Shown here: piece after piece, positions 21,780 through 32,569 of the stretch
Numbering within the stretch: position 1 is the first letter of the stretch
Layout of the letters: each line of letters opens with the position of its first letter
Assembly: GCA_027486585.1 (NCBI GenBank)
Contig: JAIXOU010000100.1
Location: 1 to 64,000, forward strand
Length of the DNA stretch: 64,000 bases
Direction of reading: 5' to 3'
Source of the DNA: Verrucomicrobiaceae bacterium
GTDB lineage: Bacteria > Verrucomicrobiota > Verrucomicrobiia > Verrucomicrobiales > Verrucomicrobiaceae
Translations under genes and position numbers: made by a program
Notes under the pieces: generated by a model
Seen by the model: the letters and a program-made list of their open reading frames with translations, nothing else
What the model was told of the DNA's origin: nothing
Databases searched by the model: none

Positions 21780-21815
21780 AAAAAGACTTGGAAGGGATTT
21801 TTCCAAGAGTCTTTT
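21780..21815 (+). terminator. Terminator-like hairpin after dnaX
   Basis: AAAGACTTGGAA pairs with TTCCAAGAGTCTTT, with a 2-nt bulge and a 7-nt loop, followed by a short T run. It begins about 25 bp after the dnaX stop and before the oppositely oriented tRNA gene. Confidence 0.6.
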
Positions 21816-21842
21816 AAAGATGCGTGGACCATTGATTTTCAA

Positions 21843-21917
<75 letters not shown>

Positions 21918-21997
21918 GAGGTCGTCCGCTTGTTTTGAAAGCGGGGCGTGAGTATGTCTCTCTTGTTTGAATTGGCAAGTGCTGTTTGTGATCGATT

Positions 21998-23251
21998 TTA
22001 AGAAAGCAGTCTTTGCTCGATCCACCGGATGAGATCACTGGGTGACAGACGCACAGCAATGCGGGCGGCGTAGTTTTGGCAGGCTTTCTGAACGGTCGAA
22101 TCGCTGAGGAGATGATTCAGCGCTGCCGTGACCTTTTCGACGGTAAAGGTTCGTGGGCTGAGACTGAGACCGATACCGAGCTTTTCCAGGCGATAAGCAT
22201 TGTCTGGCTGATCGTGTGCCATGGCCATGATGAGCTGTGGAATGCCTGCGGCAATACCTTGGGAAAGGGTGCCGATACCGCCATGATGCACAAAGGCCGC
22301 GGCTTGGGCGAGGAGTGTGGAAAAGGGAACGTATTCGACAGGAAGGATGGTCTTTGGGAGATTGGGCGGTAGTTGATCCAGCTTGCGGGTGACAAAGACG
22401 GCTCGTTTACCCATTTGAGTGACGGCTTGCAGAGCTACCTCAAAGAAACGTTTGGCCTGGATGTTGGCGCTGCCTGGGGTGAAGACGATGGGCTTTTCTC
22501 CAGAAGCTAGAAATGTGGCGAGTTCACCCTTCAGGGGACGCTCAGTGGATAAGTCCTCCAGCGGGAAATCCCACTGCAAGGCAGGCTGAGGCCAGTCTGG
22601 CTGAGGCTGAGCAAACCATTCGGGGAAAAGGCAGAGGACGCCATCGGGTGAGTGGGCCCAATCCCACCAGAGGCTCTTTGGCGGGGCGACGTTGTGCTTG
22701 GCGCACTGCATTTTCACGGCGGGTGCTGAAAAGCGATCTGCGGGGTTCGGCAGTCGGATGATCCAGCGTTTTAGCCAAAGCGGGAGTTTTCTAAAATGCT
22801 GCATTCCAGGAAACAGCAGGGGCGTTTCATGAGCGCTGATCATGACTGCTGGCTGGAGATGCACATTGACGAGTGGGATGCCGAGCTTTTCCCGTGCAAG
22901 CCTAGCCCCAAAAACGGTGCAGGGTGCGAGGAGCAGATCAAACTGGTCGGCTGTGCCGTGGCGCGCATGAATTGGCTCAAAGAAGGTCGCCGTGCTTTCA
23001 CCCGCAAACTCAAAGACCATCTTCGTGCCATGATAAAGCTGCCAAACGCGTGGGTCGGAAATGAAGCGGTCAAAGTCCTCTGGCTGCCCGAGTGGACTGA
23101 CCTCTATCCCAGCAGACTTGGCGGTTTCTTCAAAAACACAGGACACGATCATGGTGACGCGATGTCCGCGCTCTTTGAGCATCCTGCCCAACCAGAGAAA
23201 GGGCAGTACATCACCGGCGCTGCCAAAGGGAAGAAGGGCTATGTGTGACAT
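21998..23251 (-). CDS. UGT/GT28-like glycosyltransferase
   Basis: A 417-residue GT-B transferase related to macroside and glycolipid glycosyltransferases of the UGT superfamily. It starts with MSHIALLPFGSAGDVLPFLWLGRMLKERGH, the N-terminal acceptor domain, and carries the nucleotide-sugar-binding signature FVHHGGIGTLSQGIAAGIPQLIMAMAHDQPDNA near its C-terminus. The open frame extends to 23362 but the 23251 start avoids overlap with prmA and gives the family N-terminus. Donor and acceptor are unknown. Confidence 0.88.
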   Translation of the reverse strand: MSHIALLPFGSAGDVLPFLWLGRMLKERGHRVTMIVSCVFEETAKSAGIEVSPLGQPEDFDRFISDPRVWQLYHGTKMVFEFAGESTATFFEPIHARHGTADQFDLLLAPCTVFGARLAREKLGIPLVNVHLQPAVMISAHETPLLFPGMQHFRKLPLWLKRWIIRLPNPADRFSAPAVKMQCAKHNVAPPKSLWWDWAHSPDGVLCLFPEWFAQPQPDWPQPALQWDFPLEDLSTERPLKGELATFLASGEKPIVFTPGSANIQAKRFFEVALQAVTQMGKRAVFVTRKLDQLPPNLPKTILPVEYVPFSTLLAQAAAFVHHGGIGTLSQGIAAGIPQLIMAMAHDQPDNAYRLEKLGIGLSLSPRTFTVEKVTAALNHLLSDSTVQKACQNYAARIAVRLSPSDLIRWIEQRLLS

Positions 23252-23346
23252 GGGGTAGGGGAGGTGATGGATGAAAGGACGGGGAGACTTGCTTGTCGCG
23301 TCTTTTTTACATTGGCGATCTTCCGATGCTGTCCCATGATTTCGTG

Positions 23347-24189
23347 ATGTACCTTTGGTCAAAATTGTCTTCAGAAAAATGGGCGGATGCTTGGGAAGAG
23401 CGATTCGCAGTCAATCCAGCGCTCAACCTCGTCATCACGACTGTTTTTTTTAATGATACGGCGACCACCGAGATCTACACTGAGAAAAAGAAGGACGTCG
23501 TGGCCATTCAAAAAGAATGGGGTGGCACTGTGCGCGAGGTCAAGAATCAGAACTGGGCGGCTCTCTCCAAAGAACCGATGCCAGAGATCCAGGTGCGTGG
23601 AAAAATGGTCGTCTGCAGTGCGCGGACTCCTCAGGAGATCAAGAAGGCTCAGAAGGCCAATGAAGGCCGTGAGATCATCGCCATCCCCGCCGATATGGCC
23701 TTTGGTACAGGGCATCATGCGACCACTTCCACGGTACTGAGGATGCTTGTCGATGCCGCCGAGCCTTTGGCTGGCAAGCGCTGGACGATGGCTGATCTTG
23801 GCTGCGGCAGTGGTATCTTGGCCATCGCTGCTTCAAAGCTAGGCGCGGCGAAAGTGTGGGGCTGTGACTTTGATCCCAAGGCCGTTTCAGTTTCCAAAGA
23901 AAACGCGGAGCGTAATGGCACTCCGAAGATCCGTTTTACCGAAGTTGATGTGCTGGAATGGGAGCCGAAGGAGCAGTGGGACATCGTCGCCGCTAATATC
24001 TTTAGCGACATTTTAGAGGTGGCCTTTCCTCAGATCGTCCGGGCTGTGAAACCTGGTGGTGTCATCATGGCATCGGGTATTTTAAAGAAGCAGGCAGCCT
24101 GTCTGGAAGTGGCGACCGCCAACGGTGTACGCTGGGATCGAATCGTCGCGAAAGGCAAATGGGTGTCTGCCTGTGGCGTGCGTCTGTAA
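23347..24189 (+). CDS. prmA: Ribosomal protein L11 methyltransferase (PrmA), containing adapter sequence
   Basis: SAM-dependent methyltransferase for ribosomal protein L11, about 280 residues from the ATG at 23347 (alternatives 23326 or TTG 23293). The N-terminal substrate-binding domain reads MYLWSKLSSEKWADAWEERF, and the catalytic domain has PADMAFGTGHHATTSTVL, the SAM motif ADLGCGSGILAIAASKLGA and NIFSDILEVAFP. Between NLVITTV and TEKKKDVVAIQ the product reads FFNDTATTEIY, the translation of the Illumina P5 adapter and its poly-T linker. The frame continues correctly on both sides, so about 12 native codons appear replaced. The real gene is probably intact. Confidence 0.93.
   Translation: MYLWSKLSSEKWADAWEERFAVNPALNLVITTVFFNDTATTEIYTEKKKDVVAIQKEWGGTVREVKNQNWAALSKEPMPEIQVRGKMVVCSARTPQEIKKAQKANEGREIIAIPADMAFGTGHHATTSTVLRMLVDAAEPLAGKRWTMADLGCGSGILAIAASKLGAAKVWGCDFDPKAVSVSKENAERNGTPKIRFTEVDVLEWEPKEQWDIVAANIFSDILEVAFPQIVRAVKPGGVIMASGILKKQAACLEVATANGVRWDRIVAKGKWVSACGVRL
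23444..23480 (+). other. Illumina P5 adapter with poly-T linker (assembly artefact)
   Basis: Eight T residues (23444-23451) run directly into the full 29-base P5 oligonucleotide beginning AATGATACGGCGACC (23452-23480). Flow-cell P5 primers carry a poly-T tail in the same arrangement. This cannot be genuine chromosomal sequence; it lies inside prmA in frame. Confidence 0.97.
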
Positions 24190-24243: not shown

Positions 24244-25599
24244 ATGAAATTTACGGGCACTTCACATCGTCAAACACGAACCATCAGCGGCCAGCAGGTG
24301 GCACCACGCAAGAGCATGGGGCAAAACTTCCTGGTGGATGAATCGGTGGCGCAGTGGATCGCCGATCAGATTCAGCCGGATGGTGCAGACTTTGTGGTGG
24401 AGCCTGGACCTGGTCTAGGAGCTATGACCAAGCATCTGGTTGGACGCGCTAAGCAGCTTGTGTTGATCGAAAAGGACAATGCACTGGCACCCGAATTGGA
24501 GAAGCGCTTTGCCAAAGATCCCACCGTCACTGTGCTGCATGAAGACGCTACAAGGATCGATGTCAGTGGTTGGTATCGCCATGGCGATGTTCGTGTGATT
24601 GGCAATCTCCCCTACTCGGTGGGAGGTGAGATCCTGAAGCATCTGCTGACACCACCAACTCCAGTCACGATGGCAGTTTTCATGCTGCAAAAAGAGGTCT
24701 GTATGCGGTTGGCAGCCCGTGTGGGAGAGGATGGTTACGGTGGGCTCTCCGTGCTCATTCAGCGTGACTGGGACGTGGAACTGCTGCGCATCATTCCGCC
24801 TGAGGTCTTTCAACCAAAGCCCAAGGTGGACAGTGCCATCGTTCGCTTCACGCCGCGTGATCCGAGCACGCTGCCAGTCTGCGATCGCCGCATGTTTGAG
24901 CGACTTGTTAGGGCGGGTTTTAGCCAGCGCCGGAAGCAGATGAAGAATCTTTTGCCCGAGGCACCGGGTGGCTGGCAGGCCTTGGCGGATTCTTTGGGGA
25001 AATCGGTCGCGATGCGTGCTGAAGAGTTGTCCGTGGCGGAATGGGTGCAGATTTCACGCTGGTATGAAGGTCGCAAAGACCAGGACGCAGGCCAGAAATC
25101 GAGTGAGATGTTTGATGTCGTGAATGAGCGGAATGAAGTGACCGGTCAGCTGACTCGTGGTGAAGTTCACGCCAAAGGTCTGCTGCACCGCGCGGTTCAT
25201 GTGTTTGTGATCAATGCAAAGGGCATGGTCTATCTTCAGCGTCGTTCTCATTTGAAGGACGTGTCTCCGCTGAAGTGGGATAGCAGCGCGGCTGGGCATC
25301 TCGATGTCGGTGAAAGCTACGCTGATTGTGCCATACGCGAGACCCGCGAAGAAGTCGGTATTGAGATCACCAGCACAGAGCTAGCAGCCCAGTTGCCAGC
25401 CGGAACTCACACGGATCATGAATTCGTCGAGCTACACATCGCCCGTCACAACGGACCCATGAAGTGTTTCCCCGAAGAGATCGCTTACGGTGAATGGTTC
25501 ATGCCTGAAACAATCTCGGAGTGGATTCAGGCTCGCCCCCAAGACTTTGCCAAAGGCTTTATCAGCTGCTGGAAGGCTTGGACTCAGAAGTGCGGCTAA
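24244..25599 (+). CDS. rsmA: RsmA (16S rRNA A1518/A1519 dimethyltransferase) fused to a Nudix hydrolase
   Basis: A 451-residue two-domain protein. Residues about 15-275 are RsmA/KsgA: KSMGQNFLVDESVAQWI, SAM motif VVEPGPGLGAMTKHL, catalytic IGNLPYSV (N121-Y124), and the FSQRRKQMKNLL tail. Residues about 288-451 are a Nudix domain: MFDVVNERNEVTG, LLHRAVHVFVINAKG, and a complete Nudix box starting G351 (GHLDVGESYADCAI then RETREEVGI), closest in feel to the YfcD/IDI-like group. A Met at 25108 lies at the natural start of the Nudix domain and could allow separate translation. No stop or frameshift lies between the domains. Confidence 0.93.
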   Translation: MKFTGTSHRQTRTISGQQVAPRKSMGQNFLVDESVAQWIADQIQPDGADFVVEPGPGLGAMTKHLVGRAKQLVLIEKDNALAPELEKRFAKDPTVTVLHEDATRIDVSGWYRHGDVRVIGNLPYSVGGEILKHLLTPPTPVTMAVFMLQKEVCMRLAARVGEDGYGGLSVLIQRDWDVELLRIIPPEVFQPKPKVDSAIVRFTPRDPSTLPVCDRRMFERLVRAGFSQRRKQMKNLLPEAPGGWQALADSLGKSVAMRAEELSVAEWVQISRWYEGRKDQDAGQKSSEMFDVVNERNEVTGQLTRGEVHAKGLLHRAVHVFVINAKGMVYLQRRSHLKDVSPLKWDSSAAGHLDVGESYADCAIRETREEVGIEITSTELAAQLPAGTHTDHEFVELHIARHNGPMKCFPEEIAYGEWFMPETISEWIQARPQDFAKGFISCWKAWTQKCG

Positions 25600-32535: not shown

Positions 32536-32569
32536 AAAAAAAACCCTCGCCATTGAAGGCGAGGGTTTT
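32536..32569 (-). terminator. Rho-independent terminator of rplM-rpsI
   Basis: CCCTCGCC (32544-32551) pairs with GGCGAGGG (32558-32565) around a 6-nt loop. Read on the minus strand the stem is followed by eight T residues. It ends the ribosomal protein operon about 30 bp after rpsI. Confidence 0.88.

Follow-up and report, generated by a model that had tools for sequence, protein, structure and literature searches.

A complete Illumina P5 oligonucleotide preceded by eight T residues lies in frame within a prmA-like gene of the window (the whole 64,000-nucleotide stretch of DNA analysed here), and we regard it, with a probability of roughly 90%, as a sequencing artefact produced by priming on the flow cell, mixed-cluster reads and an assembler that kept the resulting path. 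Comparison with relatives gives good support to the view that priming would have taken place where native sequence happens to match the 3′ terminus of the oligonucleotide, and we infer a mixed-cluster step to account for the rest. The original prediction, that eight T residues and the whole P5 are embedded in prmA in frame, is borne out by an exact match at 23,444–23,480, and its view that the poly-T points to a flow-cell oligonucleotide agrees with the position of the T run directly before P5. Its artefact reading also stands, as the relatives lack P5 and have the same length and the two closest carry a native match to the P5 3′ end; what we would amend is the term adapter contamination, the artefact being a bare surface oligonucleotide at a native 3′ match and not ordinary read-through.

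Both the T run and the 29 bases of P5, AATGATACGGCGACCACCGAGATCTACAC, are exact, and the latter are in frame in the prmA-like open-reading frame (Table 1). The chance expectation of such a match was zero in 100 shuffles of the window, when the 20 bases at the start of P5 were scored and at most two mismatches allowed. Across the 6.50 Mb genome (147 contigs), P5 occurs once, at prmA, when up to three mismatches are allowed; P7 is absent from the same 6.50 Mb. A test of exact P7, TruSeq and Nextera motifs gave no match within the 64 kb window, where, apart from this T run, the A8 at 32,536 is the sole A or T homopolymer of eight or more bases. Native codons resume at 23,481, with neither read-1 primer nor index behind P5, and the site lies 23.4 kb into a contig of 318,120 bases, away from the contig ends. 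The 11-mer GAGATCTACAC, which forms the 3′ end of P5, has four copies in the genome (both strands, 6.50 Mb), one of which is the prmA site, and oligonucleotide sequence stands upstream of none of the other three; local coverage is one possible reason why just one of the four native 11-mers is affected.

The prmA search covered 56 genomes including that of the window, 55 of which gave a match, and 29 same-genus relatives were compared. P5 was found in the prmA of none of these 29, and the protein alignment over the oligonucleotide site showed no length difference in any of them (29/29), with the frame kept. The two closest relatives (L233 and L234, 93% and 89% DNA identity) match the window at 149/150 and 142/150 bases to the left of the oligonucleotide and at 140/150 and 138/150 bases to the right, at just 5/26 and 4/26 bases over 23,444–23,469, and at 11/11 in both over 23,470–23,480. 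As position 23,444 and positions 23,470–23,480 match both relatives, the foreign stretch comprises 25 bases or eight residues, and the site peptide reads FFNDTATT-EIYT in the window versus PGRS[T/S]IRV-EIYT in the two relatives. The expectation that native codons had been replaced in register therefore holds over these eight residues, whereas EIYT is the two closest relatives' own sequence and is native, since both naturally carry GAGATCTACAC. The 11-mer is absent from this site in the other 27 of the 29 relatives, so that only two neighbours speak for it being native to this genome. The prmA site thus unites poly-T (eight T, not ten) and a complete oligonucleotide with native sequence right after its 3′ end, a natural match to that end in the two closest relatives, and conserved length and frame in 29/29. 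The warning that the peptide must not be treated as a domain was justified; the statement that it is known from databases fared less evenly, in that we found no mention of it in the open-access literature searched, while NDTATTEIYT is encoded in other public contigs.

Table 1 Features at the oligonucleotide site in the prmA-like gene of the window.
Feature	Position	Strand	Basis or remark
prmA-like open-reading frame (ribosomal protein L11 methyltransferase)	23293–24189	+	Listed TTG start; Pfam PF06325
Poly-T tail of flow-cell oligonucleotide	23444–23451	+	8 T visible; the first T is also the base of the relatives
Stretch overwritten in register	23445–23469	+	FFNDTATT versus PGRS[T/S]IRV in the two closest relatives
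Complete Illumina P5, native sequence directly after, without read-1 primer or index	23452–23480	+	Sequence match
Native-identical GAGATCTACAC, last 11 bases of P5; putative priming site	23470–23480	+	11/11 in both closest relatives

The PrmA profile PF06325 matches residues 46–293 of the open-reading frame (E-value 4.5e-48), and NCBIfam TIGR00406 (prmA) matches it at a score of 138.2; as this is below the cut-off of 183.15, its status as a prmA equivalog is unconfirmed. With the listed TTG starts, prmA overlaps a divergent glycosyltransferase open-reading frame (21998–23362, reverse strand) over 23,293–23,362. Most prmA relatives begin to align only at about residue 10–19, for which reason each of the two frames probably starts further downstream than listed, and the true prmA start is probably a later ATG, at 23,326 or 23,347, rather than the listed TTG. 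Elsewhere in the window, a single open-reading frame (24244–25599, forward strand) joins an RsmA/KsgA-type rRNA adenine dimethylase (PF00398) to a NUDIX domain (PF00293), a combination matched over 449 residues in the two closest relatives at 97–99% identity. An 81-residue open-reading frame (21814–22059, reverse strand) overlaps a tRNA-Thr gene (21843–21917, reverse strand), whose translation probably gave rise to this spurious frame.

The steps that could have led to this sequence begin with the genome's own prmA, which, on the evidence of the relatives, has GAGATCTACAC, identical to the 3′ end of the surface-bound T-tailed P5. During cluster growth the surface oligonucleotide would anneal at GAGATCTACAC and be extended, giving a shortened strand that starts with poly-T and P5 and continues into prmA. 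By the platform's read order, read 2 runs towards the surface, and the short strands would be read through P5 and the poly-T and would then end, with the full-length strands of the same cluster remaining in phase, so that the called read would consist of native, oligonucleotide and again native sequence in one register. Oligonucleotide-bearing reads would then have exceeded native ones at prmA, and the assembler would have retained their path. The right junction falls where native sequence matches the 3′ terminus of P5 and a polymerase would extend, and as usual assembly k-mers would be longer than an overlap of 11 bases, this junction was probably formed in a molecule. At the left junction homology amounts to no more than single bases, and register is nonetheless kept. 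Illumina's own grafted oligonucleotides bear ten T. The T run varies in length: the prmA site has eight T, L138 lacks them, L076 has 13 and L140 has T10 and then AT, giving a range in this class of 0 to 13 and not always ten. PMC11123353 describes a surface primer that consists of ten T joined to the initial 22 bases of P5.

To place the prmA site in context, we surveyed P5 in public contigs, which yielded 113 occurrences on 110 stretches among viral contigs and at least 124 occurrences on at least 120 stretches in the genome scan. The usual setting, in which P5 lies within 100 bases of a locus end and is followed by part of a Nextera adapter or by a read-1 primer, accounted for 93 of the 113 viral occurrences and 75 among the 124 listed in the genome scan; an adapter piece was also present behind P5 at four viral and at least 34 genome-scan places lying 100 bases or more from both locus ends. 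No read-1 primer or Nextera piece was detected at 15 places at this distance from both ends (eight viral and at least seven genomic), and three of these were dropped: L015 and L037, with an index and part of a Nextera adapter, and L112, with a read-1 primer at one mismatch. Six of the remaining 12 were compared with relatives (L022, L203, L209, L140, L019 and L138), three had no comparator (L010, L013 and L076), and L069, L178 and L199 stayed outside the comparison, L199 being probably a joined contig end, as it adjoins a stretch of N and its flanks are repeated. Another 15 places, nearer a locus end and again with no adapter detected (seven viral, at least eight genomic), were left out of the comparison. 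For L010, L013, L019 and L076, no other viral contig was found to share both flanks, nor was a phage relative of L076, and the matches listed for L013 span 40–48 bases, the size of the oligonucleotide itself.

In-register overwriting by an oligonucleotide is a rare class. In the phylum, T6 followed by P5 occurred in three of 387 genomes, and in the two besides that of the window a read-1 primer comes after P5, near a locus end; a search at megablast sensitivity of 20,395 E. coli records gave no match to T8 followed by P5. Three P5-bearing phage records were inspected and 16 others left out; all three (H6 TAC1, H17 HMD-P3 and H18 Pd_22F) were rejected as members of the class, having an index or primer after P5. 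The Klebsiella pneumoniae plasmid CP058799.1 matched T7 followed by P5 at two places in the record. As a separate observation, many public viral and metagenome-assembled contigs (among L002–L231) have at their start or end an untrimmed P5 together with a read-1 or Nextera adapter, P5 at contig ends is often preceded by a T run of about ten or more, and bins of DRR093004, ERR712384 and SRR6823441 recur often among the P5-bearing contigs.

The comparisons of further P5 cases with their relatives cover selected loci, further weaker matches being left out. In a Rhodobacteraceae metagenome-assembled genome (L203), T11 followed by P5 falls at a natural TTEIYT motif of an integrase-family gene (PF00589; 2247–3167, reverse strand), which we take to be XerC/D-like. 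The gene is in register with 11/11 relatives, of which three share an exact 3′ match of 14 nucleotides, two of eight and six of two. Recurrence at this motif as a hot spot was not seen within the order of L203, P5 being present in one of 390 genomes, namely that of L203 itself. In an aminotransferase (L140, PF00155), register was kept in 7/7 relatives, with an exact match of 2 to 12 nucleotides. A permease (L209, PF00860) was in register with four of seven relatives, the nearest of which matches 10 of the last 12 bases; the other three, all distant, differ by two residues. The viral contig L022 has the same spacing as 31/31 other contigs containing both flanks, within an allowed range of 27–57 (31 spacings), and P5 is present in none of these 31; these relatives share with P5 between 7 and 10 of its last 11 bases (10/11 in 13 of the 31), and the exact match from the 3′ end extends over only 0–9 bases. 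An RfbA gene (L019, PF00483; annotated rfbA in relatives) was in register in 4/4 plasmid-borne RfbA records (four of the eight listed), which are about 56–57% identical and show little natural 3′ match to P5, and for a TauE gene (L138, PF01925) two of the seven relatives, all distant, differ in length. The five genome cases tested contain one P5 per genome.

Because the proposed mechanism implies the same for P7, we also sought P7 cases. A scan for T6 followed by P7 gave at least 122 occurrences, of which seven, among those listed, had no detected adapter behind and five of these were internal. Of these five, L429 resembles part of a TruSeq index, the comparison took in L389 and L356, and L362 and L410 were left out. 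One of the internal places lies in the Klebsiella phage Marfa; Marfa and its relative EI (L481 and L478; MN044033.1 and MN106245.1) carry T10–11 followed by P7 at one shared site in the portal gene, EI having T10 and P7 at the position of Marfa. These are separate records from different sources, municipal water versus swine faeces, and their sequences agree at 145/150 bases on each side of the P7 site. Three of the Marfa relatives listed were compared: EI, HMGUkp2 and Biddle_MM4. The latter two lack P7, have an equal length of 829 bases and show a 13-nucleotide exact natural match to the P7 3′ end. The portal gene of EI is annotated as two coding sequences, at 1–425 and 435–829 of the 829-base stretch, with the oligonucleotide at 401–434, and Marfa has no coding sequence annotated at the P7 site. 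In the other comparison, L356 and L477 have equal spacing, with seven nucleotides matching exactly and 10 of the last 11 bases shared with P7. The original prediction had counted the identical bases in an independent isolate as evidence against an artefact; this is unsafe, since native sequence determines the site, which can be affected more than once, and Marfa and EI do share a P7 version at one site.

Adapter contamination through adapter chimeras and short-insert read-through is described in a passage of PMC3163567, and the prmA case resembles it in that a synthetic platform sequence, translatable and annotatable, is retained in a consensus. An untrimmed library adapter assembled into the contig, by read-through or as an adapter-ligated chimera, would place prmA in the setting that is usual for P5 in public contigs (93/113 viral; 75 among the 124 listed in the genome scan), where P5 stands at read or contig ends with its sequencing-primer part. 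At prmA, in contrast, a bare surface oligonucleotide lies mid-contig, far from the contig end, with native codons directly after it, no other tested adapter motif in the window, length and frame kept relative to the relatives, and a natural 3′ match, and we consider read-through very unlikely here. That the organism's prmA truly encodes FFNDTATTEIYT is next to impossible: the open-reading frame remains open and the PrmA profile scores well, yet 29 exact bases of a synthetic oligonucleotide plus T8, in none of the 29 relatives compared, and a divergence that ends exactly where natural P5 identity starts speak against it.

Mispriming by a P5 primer in library PCR or another wet-lab step, with polishing or consensus rather than mixed clusters causing the in-register overwriting, would likewise need a native 3′ match, and a column-wise consensus preserves register as well; L138, with P5 lacking any T, would fit it as well. 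In PCR mispriming the primer's bases replace template bases 5′ of the matched 3′ end, as at prmA. However, T runs of about ten are common before P5 and P7, and PCR primers are not known to carry poly-T. Primer extension alone moreover loses the left flank, whereas at prmA the left flank is kept in phase and in register, beyond what simple primer extension gives. We therefore think wet-lab mispriming unlikely, and favour flow-cell priming, in which the primer would be attached to the flow cell and carry the poly-T.

We consider it likely that P5 and P7 give rise to a systematic, sequence-predictable class of error, in which a native match of about ten or more bases to the oligonucleotide 3′ end can lead to silent in-register overwriting of assemblies over the length of the oligonucleotide, with open frames and with unrelated projects affected at one and the same site. 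The open-access literature searched yielded no account of such a class. If it exists, hot spots would be expected at conserved motifs encoding the match, such as the TTEIYT of XerC/D-like integrases, and isolates that agree would falsely seem to confirm each other; native sites would be predictable, and the same artefact could appear in separate records, as in Marfa and EI. Gene callers, completeness checks and adapter screens of contig ends would probably pass such errors, since length and frame can be kept, and screening contig interiors for T-tailed P5 and P7 would reveal them directly. For the organism studied here, the oligonucleotide in prmA is of no biological novelty: the residues FFNDTATT do not exist in it and should be ignored, and the prmA entry should be flagged.
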